Positions 1 to 51,813 of a stretch of DNA of 64,000 bases are shown here, one piece after another (position 1 is the stretch's first letter; each line of letters starts with the position of its first letter). The stretch is taken from NCBI GenBank assembly GCA_020354025.1, contig CP070638.1, forward strand, positions 2,516,250-2,580,249, read 5' to 3'. The notes beneath the pieces are model-generated. The model was not told the DNA's origin, did no database searches, and worked only from the letters and a program-made list of their open reading frames with translations. The translations under genes were made by a program, and so were the position numbers. This DNA comes from Fidelibacterota bacterium. Lineage in GTDB: Bacteria; Fidelibacterota; Marinisomatia; SCGC-AAA003-L08; TS1B11.

Positions 1-408
<408 letters not shown>

Positions 409-43142: not shown

Positions 43143-43330
43143 GGGGGGAAGTTAGGGGATTATAAGGTGCATGGGGGAGTAACATGCACAACCAGCCACT
43201 CTCCCTGTCAGTCACACTGTCGCGTGATCTTGATCACAGCACCTGGCTGTAAAAGCGGTAAACTATGGCCCGTTCACGGCTGGAAGCGGAGATGCTCAGT
43301 CGGATGGTGTCGGCAACGAAAGGAGGAAAT

Positions 43331-43519
43331 ATGTTAGACCAACGTGGTAGCTCTGATCGACGCGGCCTAGATGACCGTCGCAGCGGCATTGACCGGCGAC
43401 TGAATATGGTAGCGGCTAATACAAAGCGCAGGTCTGGAAACGACCGTCGCTCTACTACGGACCGTCGTATCTACCTCGACCGACGTATGACCGCTATTTC
43501 CTTCAGAGATATCGCCTAG
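43331..43519 (+). CDS. Small DRR-repeat protein
   Basis: 62 aa. The ATG at 43331 has an excellent AGGAGG (43321-43326), which decides the start although the frame is open to 43265. The chain carries Asp-Arg-Arg at residues 9, 15 and 21 and again at 38, 44 and 50, with KRR at 32, so the spacing is exactly six residues within each block. It is highly basic and hydrophilic, without signal or membrane segment. Similar ERR/DRR strings occur as short tails in signalling proteins, but I do not know a function. It could bind nucleic acid or an acidic partner. It lies alone between two minus-strand operons. Confidence 0.7.
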   Translation: MLDQRGSSDRRGLDDRRSGIDRRLNMVAANTKRRSGNDRRSTTDRRIYLDRRMTAISFRDIA

Positions 43520-43549: not shown

Positions 43550-44464
43550 TCACTTCTCCCACCGCCCCTCGTAAGCTCTGGGCTCCCCTTGCAGGTCCCT
43601 GTGGAGGGTAACCTCCGCCCCCGCTGCTTCGAAAATCGCGCGCACTGGCTCGGCCTGGCAGCTGCCGCCAATCTCTACGATCATCCGTCCCGCCCCTTCA
43701 AGCAATCCGGGACCAATCTCCGCCAGCCGCCGGAACCAGGTCAGCCCGTCGTTGCCATCGGTCAACGCCGAGAGTGGCTCATGCTCGCGGATTTCACGCT
43801 GGAGCATGGTCATCTCATCGGCCGCTACGTATGGTGGATTGCACAGAATCGAATCGAATCTACCCTTGAGCAATGCTTTAAGTATATCCCTTTTCTGGAA
43901 AGTTACATTGGCAGCTTCCAGTCGCCGGGCGTTCTCCTCTGCTACGGCCAGTGCAGCTTGGGAAATATCCACCGCTGTTACCTGTGCATCGGGATAGAGC
44001 AGAGCCGCTGTGATGGCTAGGCAGCCCGAGCCGGTGCCGATATCCAGGATAAGTTCGGGAGAGGATGCTTGGCGCAGCACCTGAATGAGCGTCTCGGTCT
44101 CGGGGCGGGGGATTAACACCGCCGGCGTAACAAGAAAATCGTGGCCGTAGAAAGGGGCTTTACCCAGGATATACTGAAAGGGCTCGCCGACCACTCGCCG
44201 CCGCACAAGACCCTTGAATCCAGCTAGTTCCCTGGAAGTGAGGCCGCGGTCGTGCTGGACGTATAGGTCAATCCGCTCCAGGCCTAGCTGATGGGCCAGG
44301 AGCCATTCCACTTCCAGGCGGGCGTTAGAGATGTTGCGGTCGGTGAAGTAGCGCGTTCCCCACTGGATCAGATCGATGATCCGCCAAGGCAGGGAATTAT
44401 GCTGAGCACTGCCCCGAGCATGGTCGAAGGGATTGTCAAGAGGGCGGTTTGTGATCTGGATCAC
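43550..44464 (-). CDS. prmC: Peptide chain release factor N5-glutamine methyltransferase
   Basis: 304 aa. PrmC methylates the glutamine of the GGQ motif in RF1 and RF2. An N-terminal helical domain (about 30-110) is followed by the methyltransferase: motif [12 protein letters not shown] and the substrate-binding NPPYVAADE. The GTG start overlaps the prfA stop by 4 nt (GTGTGA), so it is coupled to its own substrate's gene, a very common arrangement. Last gene of the rho operon. Confidence 0.95.
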
Positions 44465-45543
44465 ACTTCTGTTTGACCGGTCGGTAGATCAGCCAGACGT
44501 TCCATCCGCTCATGGACCCGCAGCTGCTCGATGAGCTCATCCAGGTCGCCGTCGGTGATCTCGCCTAGCCGGTAGAGAGTCAGGTTGATGCGATGGTCGG
44601 TTACCCGTCCCTGGGGGTAATTGTAGGTGCGGATCTTAGCACTACGGTCGCCGGTGGAGACCATGCTGCGTCGCTGGTTGGCCCGCTGGCGCTGCTGTTC
44701 CTCCGCTTGCAGGGCGTACAGCCGCGAGGTCAGCACTTTCATGGCTTTGGTGCGGTTCTTGTGCTGGGATTTCTCATCTTGGCAGGTGGCTACGATGCCA
44801 GTGGGGATATGGGTAATACGCACCGCTGATTCGGTTTTGTTTACATGCTGGCCACCAGCCCCCGAAGCTCGGTAGGTATCTATTTTCAGTTCGGCAGCAT
44901 CAATGTCCACCTCCACCTCATCCGCCTCGGGCAGGACTGCAACTGAAGCGGCGCTGGTGTGAATACGGCCGCTGGCCTCGGTCACCGGCACCCGCTGCAC
45001 CCGGTGTACACCGCTCTCGTACTTCAGATCGCCATAAGCCCCCTTGCCCTTAACCGAAGCAATGATTTCCTTGATACCTCCGGTCTCCGACTCGGAAAGC
45101 GACAAGACTTCGGTATCCCACCCCTTGCGCTCGGCGTAACGGGTGTACATGCGGTAAAGATCACCGGCGAACAAGGCCGCTTCTTCCCCACCGGTACCAC
45201 CCCGGATTTCCAGGATGGTATTCTTATCATCGTCTGGATCCCTGGGCAGTAACAGGAACTTGAGCTCCTCTTCCAGCTCCGCCAGCCTACTCTTGATTTC
45301 TGGCGCTTCCTCGTGGGCGAGTTCCTTCAGTTCAGGATCGTCCCCTTGGAGAATCTCCTCGGCCTCCTCCAGCCGTTGCCATAGGTCCACGTAGGTGCGG
45401 GACTTATCGGCTACCTCGTTCAGTTCGCTGTGCTCTCTTGCCAGTTCGGCGTATTTCCTGGGGTCGGACATCGTCTCAGGGTCCGACATGCGGGTAGCCA
45501 GGTCATCCTGCCGCTGGATTATTTCCTGTAGCTTCTTAATCAT
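44461..45543 (-). CDS. prfA: Peptide chain release factor 1
   Basis: 360 aa, full length. It recognises UAA and UAG and triggers peptide release. The GGQ motif is in [20 protein letters not shown]; the RF1-type PxT tripeptide appears as PVT in [12 protein letters not shown]. The start ATG has GAGGAT 6-7 nt upstream. It is followed by prmC and preceded by the DUF1385 gene with 9 nt between them. Confidence 0.97.
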
Positions 45544-45552
45544 ATTTTATCC

Positions 45553-46599
45553 TCAGGCAATGGCCTCGGCAACGTATTGCTTCCCCTCCACTTCCTTCAA
45601 CCGGTCACCGAAGGCTACCTTCAGGGATTCCAGCGCCACCACAACCTGATCGTCATCGGGCATCCGGGTAGTGATGTACTGTAGCCAGATACCAGGCAGG
45701 GACAGCCAGCGGAATATGGTTACATGCAGGTACTTGGTGGTGAACTTGAGTGCTTCATACCCGGCACCGGCCACCATCGGGATCAGTGGAAGGTGCACCA
45801 GCAACCGCAGACCGAGGGTGATCTTCCCCACCAAGGCTAGGACAACGGTATCTATCAAGGCGAAGGCCAGGATCGCCGCAATGAGCACAATAAAGACGAA
45901 GCTGGTACCGCAGCGGGGGTGCTGAGTGGGGAAGTCACGGGTGCTGTCCACGGTGAGGGATTTCCCCGCTTCGAAGGCATACACGGTCTTGTGCTCGGCG
46001 CCGTGGTACTGGAACAGCCGCCGAACGTCTCTGGCCAGGGAGATCAGCCCCAGATACAATAGAAAGAAGGCAATGCGTATGCCCCCGGATGCCAGGTTGA
46101 ATCCCAGAGCCTGCCGCTCAATATCCAATAAGCGAGTAGTAATCCACAAGGGGGCAATAAAGAACAGACCGATTGCCAGTGCCAGCGCCAGTGCTGTCGT
46201 CCAGACGTTGGATGAAGAACCTTTCCCGGCGGTCTCTTCGGGATAAGCCACTGTCGCAGACCAGTTGAGGGTGGCCAATCCGATTTTTAAGGCCTCAAAC
46301 AGATGCACCACTCCTCGCACCACGGGTAGCTTCAGCCAGCGGGAGCGCTCTACCGAGGAACTGAAATCCGTACATTGGGTCTGGATCTGGCCTTCGGGGT
46401 CTCGTACTGCAACTGCATAGACGCCGGGAACGCGCATCATCACTCCTTCGATAACGGCCTGACCGCCCACCAGGATACGGGACTGGGCTGCCAGCACCAG
46501 CAAAGGCAGTGACCAGAGCGAACGTTGAATTGGATGCTCTGCGCCGCCCTGCCGCGAGGGCGGTGATTGTCTTGCTTTTCCTGTCCCGGAGAGCCGCAT
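45553..46599 (-). CDS. DUF1385-family membrane protein
   Basis: 348 aa. The family signature LVGGQAVIEGVMMR is at residues 43-56, followed by four or five hydrophobic segments (ALALALAIGLFFIAPLWITT, FIVLIAAILAFALIDTVVLA) and FQYHGAEHKTVYAFE, also a family hallmark. Function is unknown; the gene is typically found next to rpmE and prfA, as here. The first 40 residues before the signature are longer than usual, so the true start may be downstream, but no better ribosome binding site was found. Confidence 0.9.
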   Translation of the reverse strand: MRLSGTGKARQSPPSRQGGAEHPIQRSLWSLPLLVLAAQSRILVGGQAVIEGVMMRVPGVYAVAVRDPEGQIQTQCTDFSSSVERSRWLKLPVVRGVVHLFEALKIGLATLNWSATVAYPEETAGKGSSSNVWTTALALALAIGLFFIAPLWITTRLLDIERQALGFNLASGGIRIAFFLLYLGLISLARDVRRLFQYHGAEHKTVYAFEAGKSLTVDSTRDFPTQHPRCGTSFVFIVLIAAILAFALIDTVVLALVGKITLGLRLLVHLPLIPMVAGAGYEALKFTTKYLHVTIFRWLSLPGIWLQYITTRMPDDDQVVVALESLKVAFGDRLKEVEGKQYVAEAIA

Positions 46600-46862: not shown

Positions 46863-48071
46863 TTAGTTCACGTTTGCTACCGCCGCTCTGATGCAGTCAA
46901 CGGCAGTGATAATATCTTCGTCTGAAACGGCGAACGACAGTCGGATATGTTCTTGGTCGCCGAATCCTTCGCCGCTGACCGTAGCCACGCGGGCCTGGTC
47001 AAGAATGAATTCCGTAACATCGCGGGGTGTTCGGAGTTGCCTGTTACCTGCCTGGTGGGAAGATGAGTTGACTGTTTTGCCGAACAATCCGCTAACATTC
47101 AGGAATACGTAAAAAGCGCCCCCGGGGTTCCGACACGATAGGAAAGGAATTCGGGACAGGCGCTCGACCATTAGCCCCCGCCGTCGCTTATATGCGGCTC
47201 TATGCTCCGCCACCATCGATTGATCCCCTATTAAGGCGGCAATGGCGGCCATCTGGCTGATGGAGTTTGGGCACGTTGTACTCTGGCCCTGCATTTTGGT
47301 CATGGCTGCTACTACTTCCTTCGGCCCGGCCATATAGCCGATACGCCAGCCAGTCATAGCGTAGGTCTTGGAGCAGCTCTGGAAGGTGAGGATCTTCTTA
47401 TAGCCAGGGACTACGGCGGCTGGTGATTCAAAGGGCTGGTCATAGGACAGGGCTTCGTAGCTCTCGTCGGACAGCAGCCACAAGTCATGCCGTCGGGCCA
47501 ATTGGATAGTCTGCTCTACTGCCTCCCGGTTCCACACTCCGCCGGTGGGATTGGAAGGGGAATTCATAATGATACCCTTAGTGCGGGAATTGATTTTAGC
47601 CTCCAGCTCGTTGAAGCGGGGCTCAAACCCGTGCTCTGGATCTGTGTCAACGAAAATCGGAGTAGCGTGAGCTAGATGGACAAGTTCCGGAAAAGACACA
47701 TAATAGGGAGTAAAGATGATGACCTCATCTCCTTGCTGGAATAGGGTCAGGCAAGCGTTGTACATGGAATGCTTGCTGCCGTTGCTCACAATTATCTGAT
47801 CGGGGCCAGTCTCCACCTTGTTGTCTCGGCTTAGCTTTGTGGCTGCTGCATTACGTAGCTGGGGGATGCCTGCTGTGGGCGTATAGCGGGTGTAGCCCTC
47901 GTCCATGGCCTGTCTGGCGGCAGCGATGATATGCTCCGGGGTTGGAAAGTCCGGCTCTCCCGCCAGAAGGCTTAGTACTTCTACGCCAGCGGCACGCAGC
48001 TCAGCGGCTTGGTTGGTCATCTCCAAAGTGGTCGAGCTCTTAATACGGGATACTCTATCGGCAAAAATCAT
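46863..48071 (-). CDS. Class I/II aminotransferase (aspartate aminotransferase-like)
   Basis: 402 aa PLP enzyme of fold type I. Visible are the substrate-binding NSPSNPTGGVW, the PLP lysine in SCSKTYAMTGWRIGYMAGP (about residue 235), and the arginine in HIRLSFAVSDE near the C-terminus. The opening RVSRIKSSTTLEMTNQAAEL is as in subgroup I-gamma aspartate or prephenate aminotransferases; the exact substrate is not certain. A short insertion (VNSSSHQAGNRQL, about 337-350) is unusual. It lies between the Cas6-like gene and rpmE within the rho operon. Confidence 0.92.
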   Translation of the reverse strand: MIFADRVSRIKSSTTLEMTNQAAELRAAGVEVLSLLAGEPDFPTPEHIIAAARQAMDEGYTRYTPTAGIPQLRNAAATKLSRDNKVETGPDQIIVSNGSKHSMYNACLTLFQQGDEVIIFTPYYVSFPELVHLAHATPIFVDTDPEHGFEPRFNELEAKINSRTKGIIMNSPSNPTGGVWNREAVEQTIQLARRHDLWLLSDESYEALSYDQPFESPAAVVPGYKKILTFQSCSKTYAMTGWRIGYMAGPKEVVAAMTKMQGQSTTCPNSISQMAAIAALIGDQSMVAEHRAAYKRRRGLMVERLSRIPFLSCRNPGGAFYVFLNVSGLFGKTVNSSSHQAGNRQLRTPRDVTEFILDQARVATVSGEGFGDQEHIRLSFAVSDEDIITAVDCIRAAVANVN

Positions 48072-48137: not shown

Positions 48138-48821
48138 TCAGGACGGTATCTGGACGATGGTTCCTAATCCTTTGGTAATTCCGTTCCCCAGACCTATATA
48201 ATCGGGCAGGATCATATTGCAGGTGAAGGAACCCTTGAAAGAGCCGCTACCCTGTCCTTCCACTACCCGTGGGGTCAAGGACTGGAGATTCACCTTGACA
48301 CTGACGCTAAAGCCGATGTCGTACTTCAGTTCCCGGGCGATAAACAAGAGGTTCTGGACCACGAGGCGGTTAAGGTAAGCAACTCGTTCATTAGGTAACA
48401 GAGATTTATACAAGGCCAGGGAGCGTGGGTTGAGGGCTACCCAGGGGGTAATAAACTTATAGCGGAGAAAATGGTCGGCATACTGATCAAGCTGGAGTCC
48501 GCTCTCCAGCACATCCATACGCTCAACCTTGTAGGTCTGATCGTCAATTTGAAATGATTCCAGTTGCTGGCGAAAAGACTGAACCACATCATATCCCTCA
48601 CCCAGGCCGAAAATGCATAGCTGGTTCCGCAGCACCTTAACCTGGATCCGTGGGTAGCGCATCTCGCCGCGATATTCTCCATTGATAAAGGGCACAATAG
48701 GATGACTGGGAAAATCATGGATGATAATCCCCTTCAACCGATAGGGAGTGATCAATACCGGGTGGTCGGTATGGAATCTTACACAGATTGCTCGGGCTGT
48801 GACTTGCGATGGGAAAGCCAT
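48138..48821 (-). CDS. Cas6b-like RAMP protein (orphan)
   Basis: 227 aa, AAGG 8 nt before the ATG. The order of motifs matches what I recall for the Cas6b family: TPYRLKGIIIHDFPSHPIV (25-43), the strand YPRIQVKVLRNQLCIFGLGE (56-75), FITPWVALN (123-131), and a C-terminal glycine-rich loop DYIGLGNGITKGLGTIV (207-223). Cas6 enzymes cut CRISPR precursor RNA. Histidines 35 and 40 lie in the N-terminal region where family members have catalytic candidates, but the usual His cluster after the FP motif is reduced. No repeat array or other cas gene is in the window. The gene is co-directional with rho (39 nt) and the aminotransferase (66 nt), so it may have a different RNA substrate. Confidence 0.72.
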   Translation of the reverse strand: MAFPSQVTARAICVRFHTDHPVLITPYRLKGIIIHDFPSHPIVPFINGEYRGEMRYPRIQVKVLRNQLCIFGLGEGYDVVQSFRQQLESFQIDDQTYKVERMDVLESGLQLDQYADHFLRYKFITPWVALNPRSLALYKSLLPNERVAYLNRLVVQNLLFIARELKYDIGFSVSVKVNLQSLTPRVVEGQGSGSFKGSFTCNMILPDYIGLGNGITKGLGTIVQIPS

Positions 48822-48860: not shown

Positions 48861-50126
48861 CTAATTACTCATGGTATCTAGGAATTCTCGATTCGATTTG
48901 GTGCGTTGGAGGCGATCCAGCAAGAACTCCATAGCTTCCACCACGCTCATATCGTTGAGCAGCCGTCGCAGAATCCAGGTACGTGAGAGGTCTTTCCGAC
49001 TAAGGAGTTTCTCTTCCCGTCGGGTTCCGGTGCGGTTGATATCAATAGACGGATAGACCCGCCGGTCGCTCAGGCTCCTGTCTAGGATCAGTTCCATATT
49101 GCCGGTGCCTTTGAACTCCTCGAAGATAACGTCGTCCATGCGGCTGCCGGTATCGATCAGCGCAGTGGCGATAATGGTGAGGCTGCCACCTTCCTCGATG
49201 TTGCGGGCAGAGCCGAAAAAGCGCTTGGGTTTCTGAAGGGCGTTGGCATCGACACCACCAGAGAGAATCTTGCCGCTGTGGGGGATCACGGTATTGTGAG
49301 CCCGGGCCAACCGGGTAATAGAGTCCAGCAGGATCACCACATCCTGACCAACTTCCACCATCCTGCGAGCTCGCTGCAATACCATTTCCGCAACCTGCAC
49401 ATGCCGCTCGGCTGGCTCGTCAAAAGTGGAGGAGATCACCTCCGCATCAACGCTCCGTTTCATTTCCGTCACTTCCTCTGGACGCTCATCTATGAGGAGG
49501 ATGATCAGGTAAATATCCGGATGGTTTTGAGTTATGGCATTGGCAATTTTCTGTAGCAGAATAGTCTTGCCGGTCTTGGGCTGGGCCGGAATGAGGCCCC
49601 TCTGACCCTTGCCGACGGGTGCCACCAGGTCAATGATGCGGGTGGAGAGTTCCTTCGCGCTAGTCTCCAGTGCCAGATGGTCTTCAGGGAACTGCGGCGT
49701 CAGGTCTACAAAGTGAGGAAACGATTTGATCTCATCCGGGCTGATGCCGTTTACCGCATCCACCCTGAGCAGCGCAAAGAAGCGCTCATTATCCTTGGGG
49801 GGACGTATCTGGCCATTTACAACATGCCCCGTACGCAGGCCGAAGCGCTTGATCTGCGAAGGCGAGACGTAGATGTCCTCGGGACCGGGGAGATAGTTGA
49901 AATCGGGGGAACGCAAAAAGCCGTAGCCATCCGGCATAATCTCCAGTACACCGCGGGCATACACGTTGCCCTGTTTCTCGGCCTGGGTCTCCAGGATTTT
50001 AAGGATGAGGTCATGCTTCCTCAGACCGGAATAATCGCTGACGTCCAGCTCCTGAGCCAGCTTAGTGAGATCCTTTACACGCAGTGACTGCAGTTCGCTA
50101 ATGTCCATGATAGGTTCTTCTGTCAT
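48861..50126 (-). CDS. rho: Transcription termination factor Rho
   Basis: 421 aa. Rho is a hexameric RNA-dependent ATPase that ends transcription. An N-terminal SAP-like helix region precedes the RNA-binding cold-shock-like domain with [20 protein letters not shown]. Walker A is [10 protein letters not shown] (about residue 184), Walker B/Q-loop region [16 protein letters not shown], and the R-loop [25 protein letters not shown] 4 nt before the ATG at 50126 supports this start; ATG at 50108 is an alternative. First gene of the operon down to prmC. Confidence 0.97.
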
Positions 50127-50604
50127 GATACTTCCAATGCTAAAGTTGATGGTGAATGATTAACGGCAACAGAATAAGCTCTTTACCTGCCAACCGAGTG
50201 TTCCAAAAAAACTAACTACGGATTAAAAGCGGGATCATATAGCTGATCTAGTAGATTATTATAGTTCTTTCTGCCAGTTTCCCACCCTGGCTACAATGCC
50301 TCGGGAGTGCTCGCTCCGTGGTCAGATTGTACAGCTTAGCTCAAAAAGAATGTGCGGTCAATTATAGATGCTGCTGATCGCTATTCAAGATATGCAACGT
50401 CTGCTCCGAAGAGCTTAACTGCAAATCCGGCTCCGAAGTTCCCCACTAGACGTCACATTGGCTTCAAATACCAGCTATACTCTTACCCCCTCTGAAATCT
50501 CAGTCTTTATACGTCAATTAATGGTTCGACGGAAAAAGTCTAGCAAATTGATCGGAAAATCGTATCAGGGGGCTAAAACTCTCGCCTGGAAATTGAGAGA
50601 AATA
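50127..50604. other. 478-nt intergenic region upstream of rho
   Basis: This AT-richer stretch lies between the start of rho and the end of folC and should hold the promoter of the rho-prmC operon. I looked for tRNA cloverleaf motifs, long inverted repeats and open frames on both strands and found none that I can support. Confidence 0.5.
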
Positions 50605-51813
50605 TCAAAGTATGTCAAATGAAATTTTAAATATCCTCGCAACCGCCGGCCCCAGGTAATGGGAACCTAAAATGACCACCAAGTCCTCTATCCCTGCCTT
50701 GTTGATCGCGCCCTTGATAGCTGACACAGTGTCACACTCAATCCGTATACAATGATGGGAGGTCCCCACCAGTTCAGCAAGGTCATTGGCTGAATAGAAG
50801 CTGCGGATACCGGTCTGTGTGAGTATTACCGTGTCAAACCTGGGTAGCAGCATATCCAGCATCTGTTCGGCTTTCCGCCCCTTCTGAAGGGCTAGTACCA
50901 GCCATTTTCGACCCCTAACGGACTCTCCAGCCAGAGTATCCAGAAAAGCAGTCATTCCGCTTGGATTGTGTGCCACGTCGTAGATCACACTGGGATGATC
51001 GCCGAGCTGATGATACCTGCCAGGCCAGACGGTGGTTTTGACTGCTTCACGGGCAACTTCATTGATAAAGTCGCTACCGAGGATCGCCTGCGCAAGCCTC
51101 CAGGCTAATTTGGCATTGGTGTGCTGGTGACTTCCAGGCAACCGGAGGGGAAGGGGAACCGCCGGTTCTTCGCGCAGGAATGTGACCGGCGCACCGACCC
51201 GATCAGCTTCAGACTGTATCACTTCGCGCACCCATGAGGTCTGGGGAACCGAATAGCACGGCACTCCCGGCTTGAGTATGCCGGCTTTCTCCCTGGCGAT
51301 GGCACGAACTGTGTCTCCCAGCAGATCCATGTGATCTAGGTCAATGGGAGTAAGGGCGGTCCAGGTGGGGCTGACAGCAGTGGTAGCATCCAGACGCCCC
51401 CCCAATCCTGTTTCCAGAACGGCAACGTCCACCCTATGAGCCTTGAAATAACTCAGCGCCATGACTGTTGTGACCTCAAAGAAAGTGGCAGAGACCTCCT
51501 CCAAGTCGCCTTTGTGTTCCTTCAACCATTGGATGATATAACTGTCATCAATTGGCCTACCGTCAATACGGATGCGTTCGTTAAAGCGGCATAGGTGGGG
51601 AGAGGTGAACAGTCCTACCTTCTGACTATGATCATGTAGAATCCGGGCTGTTATGGCAGCTGTTGAGCCTTTGCCATTTGTGCCTGCGATCTGGACGATG
51701 AGAAGGTCCTGATGGGGATTCTTGCACTTTTCCAATAACTGCCGGGTGGGACCAAGCCCCAGATTTACACCCTTACGCTCTAGGCTGTATAGATATTCCA
51801 AGAGGTGGTGCAT
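50605..51813 (-). CDS. folC: Folylpolyglutamate synthase / dihydrofolate synthase
   Basis: 402 aa of the Mur-ligase family. ATP P-loop: IAGTNGKGSTAAITARIL (about residues 42-59). GLFTSPHLCRFNERIRIDG is the FolC hallmark, and HMDLLGDTVRAIAREKAGI contains the metal and carbamoyl-lysine region. The enzyme adds glutamate to folates or to dihydropteroate. C-terminal Mur ligase domain: YDVAHNPSGM. The start ATG has no clear ribosome binding site. The stop is followed by the rho upstream region. Confidence 0.95.
   Translation of the reverse strand: MHHLLEYLYSLERKGVNLGLGPTRQLLEKCKNPHQDLLIVQIAGTNGKGSTAAITARILHDHSQKVGLFTSPHLCRFNERIRIDGRPIDDSYIIQWLKEHKGDLEEVSATFFEVTTVMALSYFKAHRVDVAVLETGLGGRLDATTAVSPTWTALTPIDLDHMDLLGDTVRAIAREKAGILKPGVPCYSVPQTSWVREVIQSEADRVGAPVTFLREEPAVPLPLRLPGSHQHTNAKLAWRLAQAILGSDFINEVAREAVKTTVWPGRYHQLGDHPSVIYDVAHNPSGMTAFLDTLAGESVRGRKWLVLALQKGRKAEQMLDMLLPRFDTVILTQTGIRSFYSANDLAELVGTSHHCIRIECDTVSAIKGAINKAGIEDLVVILGSHYLGPAVARIFKISFDIL

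Follow-up and report, generated by a model that had tools for sequence, protein, structure and literature searches.

A Cas6b homolog behind rho

Within the window, the whole 64-kb stretch of DNA that was analysed, lies a one-strand series of genes in the order folC, rho, cas6b, aminotransferase, DUF1385, prfA and prmC, all on the minus strand. The cas6b-like gene (48138-48821) encodes a protein of 227 aa, and 39 nt upstream of its start codon is its constant neighbour, rho (48861-50126). Downstream lies a class I/II aminotransferase (46863-48071), the usual neighbour on this side, although several lineages have it elsewhere or lack it. It is followed by a DUF1385-type membrane protein, a usual operon member (45553-46599), by prfA, encoding peptide chain release factor 1 (44461-45543), and by prmC, encoding the release factor methyltransferase (43550-44464). 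The usual neighbour upstream of rho is folC (50605-51813); the labels of folC, the DUF1385-type gene, prfA and prmC were assigned by eye. A small ORF of 84 aa with repeated DRR-like motifs lies antisense to the operon direction (43265-43519, plus strand). An earlier, sequence-only reading of this DNA had placed the gene between rho and the aminotransferase in an operon, and its coordinates were correct, with the strand being minus.

The window ORF is a Cas6b by homology and by fold. Its product matched the Pfam domains Cas6b_C (2e-23) and Cas6b_N (9.6e-11), each beyond its curated cut-off, and the PADLOC profiles for Cas6 (1.3e-36) and Cas6b, and had a PDB sequence match to Methanococcus maripaludis Cas6b (4z7k, 1.4e-23). 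No match was found among the NCBIfam profiles. The AlphaFold model (mean pLDDT 95.3) has the tandem RAMP fold, and its best PDB structures were the Cas6b entries 4z7k and 4z7l (TM 0.79/0.82 for 4z7k), followed by other Cas6 proteins. The C-terminal glycine-rich loop, GLGNGITKGLG (residues 210-220; 48162-48194, minus strand), is intact. The sequence-only reading had called the protein Cas6b-like, glycine-rich loop included, and had proposed an HMM search as a check; the profile and PDB matches and the intact loop bear this out. The protein thus shares its two-domain fold, both Pfam domains and the loop with the type I-B enzyme of M. maripaludis. Unlike that enzyme, it lacks the catalytic His-x-His, the Lys or Arg of the loop is replaced in rho-linked proteins, and the gene has neither cas operon nor array and is fixed beside rho.

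Fixed adjacency to rho in Neomarinimicrobiota

Relatives were found in Candidatus Neomarinimicrobiota, where most genomes are metagenome-assembled and families are labelled f1-f31 here. Among the best 80 of 107 matches in an all-species scan, each one with a named phylum was assigned to Neomarinimicrobiota or, more broadly, to the 'FCB group'. The protein was present in 28 of 60 relatives searched, the window's genome included, and lay beside rho in every one of the 28. Across the phylum the family profile matched 130 of 245 genomes, about 126 of them carrying the rho-linked type: 113 belong to the window's class, where the score was the criterion, and 13 to other classes, where it was the locus. 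Of 100 inspected loci, a few of them second views of one place, 99 have rho immediately upstream and on the same strand; in the remaining locus, L038 (the same place as L008), a contig end cuts rho. Gaps between rho and cas6b were mostly 10-60 nt. This is conserved operon linkage with rho of the kind sought for a Rho accessory factor. The test set in the sequence-only reading, conservation next to rho in CRISPR-free genomes, was strongly positive: the gene is no stray remnant of CRISPR but a fixed neighbour of rho in more than 100 species of one phylum, almost all without CRISPR.

The pair also persists where the operon is rearranged. In f22 and f23 rho and cas6b remain together though the flanks differ entirely on both sides; read by eye, the pair is flanked in L145 and L148 by a UbiA-like gene and dnaE, and in L149 by a response regulator and tgt. 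rho also stays in place in L047, L068, L069, L077, L080, L087 and L088, where the aminotransferase has moved away or is absent. rho itself was present in 236 of 245 phylum genomes, and f3, f6, genome G005 and most of f29 and f30 have rho without the cas6b-like gene. G005 and f3 look like clean gene losses, since their operon is otherwise intact and rho runs directly into the aminotransferase. Rho therefore does not need the Cas6b-like protein. Where the partner was lost, altered Rho residues fell in scattered columns only and formed no interpretable pattern. At residue 288 (numbering of the L033 ORF), 96% of the Rho proteins that have a Cas6b neighbour carry His, while f3 has Tyr and G005 has Asn, both of which lost the gene; this may be chance.

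Selection on the gene was estimated from closer pairs elsewhere, as pairs involving the window were saturated. Between close pairs, dN/dS of the core was mostly 0.01-0.15, about that of Rho and usually no higher than that of the aminotransferase. Rho and Cas6b distances were correlated over 77 loci (r = 0.80, reached in 0 of 2000 permutations; 0.83 within the class). Low dN/dS and correlated distances together indicate vertical descent under strong constraint.

Catalytic motif and CRISPR content

Cas6b is a CRISPR processing enzyme, which cleaves CRISPR repeats to leave an 8-nt 5' handle. Compared with cas-linked Cas6b of the same phylum (L153, L154, L156-L158 and L161-L164), the rho-linked proteins form one clade, with branch support of 99/95 and agreement in 200 of 200 sampled bootstrap trees. 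The two groups are homologous over the whole core and have the same Pfam domains (tested for L163). None of the cas-linked genes adjoins rho, however, and each one examined is part of a cas locus or has arrays next to it. The cas-linked proteins also retain the histidine motif: the first His of the H-N-H site is present in 7 of 7 intact rows and the second in 6 of 7 (L153 reads NNH and L164 is broken). In rho-linked proteins this segment is two residues shorter and carries neither His (0 of 70 rows), including in the window protein, where the gap falls at residues 44-45 (48687-48692, minus strand). The Lys of the loop motif GxGK in cas-linked Cas6b is Asn in the window's class (Asn213 in the window protein). 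Judged from these alignments, the rho-linked protein is probably non-cleaving.

The host genome, G000, is a single 3.4 Mb contig, 95% complete, with one Cas6b only. No Cas1 was found in its 3.4 Mb. The sequence-only reading had reported no CRISPR array within 64 kb, which a search of the window confirmed, and had advised a scan of the whole genome. In that scan, G000 held no array with repeats ending ATTGAAA, sought as a triple pattern at CRISPR spacing, nor any copy of the Cas6b-type repeat known from the phylum; the search covered these two kinds of repeat. The ATTGAAA pattern recovered arrays in the positive controls G065, G066, G080, G082 and G218. Tested by Cas1 and by I-B-like arrays and repeats, G000 thus lacks the cas operon or array that a Cas6b processing enzyme would serve. 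Other markers were discarded. A weak Cas10-palm match in G000 was a GGDEF response regulator (domain call by eye), the Cas7 family PF01905 had no power, as it also missed known CRISPR genomes, and the Cas3 C-terminal family PF22590 matched general helicases in all controls.

Across the phylum, cas1 was found in 31 of 245 genomes, only 7 of them in the window's class, where about 113 genomes carry the rho-linked gene. The rho-linked gene is therefore kept without CRISPR. No ATTGAAA-type array was found in the cas1-free rho-linked genomes tested, except for one isolated three-motif match in G222 (G222:C12:13237-13404; L199), which is probably chance. Genomes with ATTGAAA-type arrays have a second Cas6b which bears the histidines. 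G022, for example, has a cas operon with cas1, interference genes (gene names by eye) and a His-bearing Cas6b (L163), plus a rho-linked copy.

Possible roles of the rho-linked protein

The Cas6 fold with its glycine-rich loop normally holds RNA, and by analogy we consider RNA binding by the rho-linked protein rather likely. The window protein (pI 9.1) and the cores of the class (median pI 8.8) are basic. For the cores of deep members the median was 7.0, against 9.4-9.8 for cas-linked Cas6b, making RNA binding less sure there. We checked for an RNA partner near the gene. Rfam matched the window only at 1-408 (minus strand), the 5' end of a 16S rRNA gene, and thus gave no RNA partner, and no convincing conserved RNA structure was found in the rho leader or the rho-cas6b gaps. 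The folC-rho spacer of f1, the window's family, is long, at 376-477 nt (window 50127-50604, minus strand; L033, L034, L035, L039 and L040) compared with about 80-130 nt at most other loci. In genus g1 this spacer contains a conserved TTGACC-like/TAAGCT-like block, which may be a rho promoter. A GTGTAGCA-like motif recurs in the rho-cas6b gap, upstream of the cas6b start codon, in L054-L058, L060, L061, L064-L066, L070, L072 and L075.

In most of the class, though not in f1 or f4, the protein is extended by a C-terminal segment with many K, R, D and E, about 73-145 residues long. This segment ends in a box of approximately FNxxxYHKKQH, and all 55 tails of more than 60 residues have a loose form of the box. 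AlphaFold gave low confidence over the tail except for a short predicted helix at the box. A conserved short motif ending a charged, probably disordered tail suggests that the box serves a binding partner; it may be a docking motif, as in the tail of L055:5977-7026.

Several accounts of the gene were weighed against this evidence. The sequence-only reading had allowed that the protein may serve a distant array. Type III loci do often borrow Cas6 in trans (PMC12669027) and the Cas6 fold is kept here, but neither cas1 nor an ATTGAAA-type array occurs in G000 or, the G222 match aside, in the cas1-free rho-linked genomes tested, and where such arrays exist the genome owns a second, His-bearing Cas6b. 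Service to an array at another place in the genome, or in trans, is thus disfavoured and we hold it to be extremely improbable. We regard it as very improbable that the protein is a decoy or repressor which binds the CRISPR repeats of invading elements, in defence or counter-defence. A retained Cas6b-like RNA-binding fold in CRISPR-poor hosts would suit such a role, but strong purifying selection and vertical descent are atypical for defence genes and our search for viral relatives of the protein found none.

The proposal that the gene was recruited to process a cellular RNA fared better in part. Recruitment is well supported by rho linkage in CRISPR-free genomes, whilst processing is not supported as stated, because no rho-linked member has the His-x-His, which is intact in cas-linked proteins. 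In M. maripaludis Cas6b, two histidines are implicated in catalysis (PMC3652601). SsoCas6 of Sulfolobus solfataricus, a crenarchaeal Cas6, also lacks the canonical histidine and cleaves using basic residues (PMC3652601), so that cleavage by the rho-linked protein is unlikely yet possible. SsoCas6 is however a CRISPR enzyme of another subfamily, with a basic catalytic network and a dimeric form (PMC3652601). Candidate basic residues do exist in the rho-linked main class, where K30, R58 and K62 never vary and R51 hardly does. Across the whole clade, beyond the fold residues common to all Cas6b, no polar residue near the site is invariant: 4 of 9 deep rows have T in place of K62, and variation is also seen at R58 and R51. 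An endoribonuclease with a different active site, acting on cellular RNA, is accordingly an improbable reading, and an RNA-binding role beside Rho fits better than RNA processing. An exapted RNA-binding protein with no tie to Rho is unlikely too, though it deserves more weight than a nuclease. Such a protein would be a passenger of a housekeeping operon and would have other RNA targets, in translation, rRNA or decay. prfA and prmC are among its neighbours and several lineages keep rho without the gene, both of which suit this account; against it, when the operon breaks up rho alone remains adjacent and the prfA group does not.

A role with Rho is our first choice because rho is the single constant partner. 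We propose that an ancient Cas6b was exapted and now serves Rho, or an RNA handled by Rho, as an accessory which does not cleave and probably binds RNA, a reading to which we give an even chance. A Cas6b gene would have landed directly behind rho early in Neomarinimicrobiota and then lost its catalytic His-x-His segment. The protein would have been retained since by strong purifying selection, with no CRISPR system, and would be made from one mRNA with Rho. Through its Cas6 fold and altered glycine-rich loop the non-cleaving protein may recognise a cellular RNA element, and the result could be modulation of Rho-dependent termination or of Rho's own expression. The parts of this proposal differ in strength. 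Exaptation outside CRISPR is very likely, whilst for a functional tie to Rho the odds appear evenly balanced. More tentatively, and at somewhat less than even chance, a CRISPR nuclease would have become a catalytically silent, RNA-binding Rho cofactor before most of the phylum diverged, placing a Cas protein in core transcription.

Most known cases of reused CRISPR parts concern guide RNAs, mobile elements or defence. CAST transposons and CRISPR-regulated toxin-antitoxins likewise put Cas parts to other ends (PMC8730458, PMC12669027), but these retain guide RNAs and multiple Cas proteins. In the present case one Cas protein, with no guides or arrays, is now part of the core genome, beside a termination factor and evolving about as slowly. 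We found no description of a rho-linked Cas6b-like protein in the open-access papers searched. Annotation pipelines will label such genes 'Cas6', and CRISPR parts will be credited to CRISPR-free genomes. The loss of the cutting residues and the permanent adjacency to rho point to a new everyday cellular job. If the protein acts with Rho, it would connect bacterial gene expression with the RNA-binding RAMP fold of CRISPR, and would offer a route by which Rho is regulated in a large and uncultured phylum of marine bacteria.
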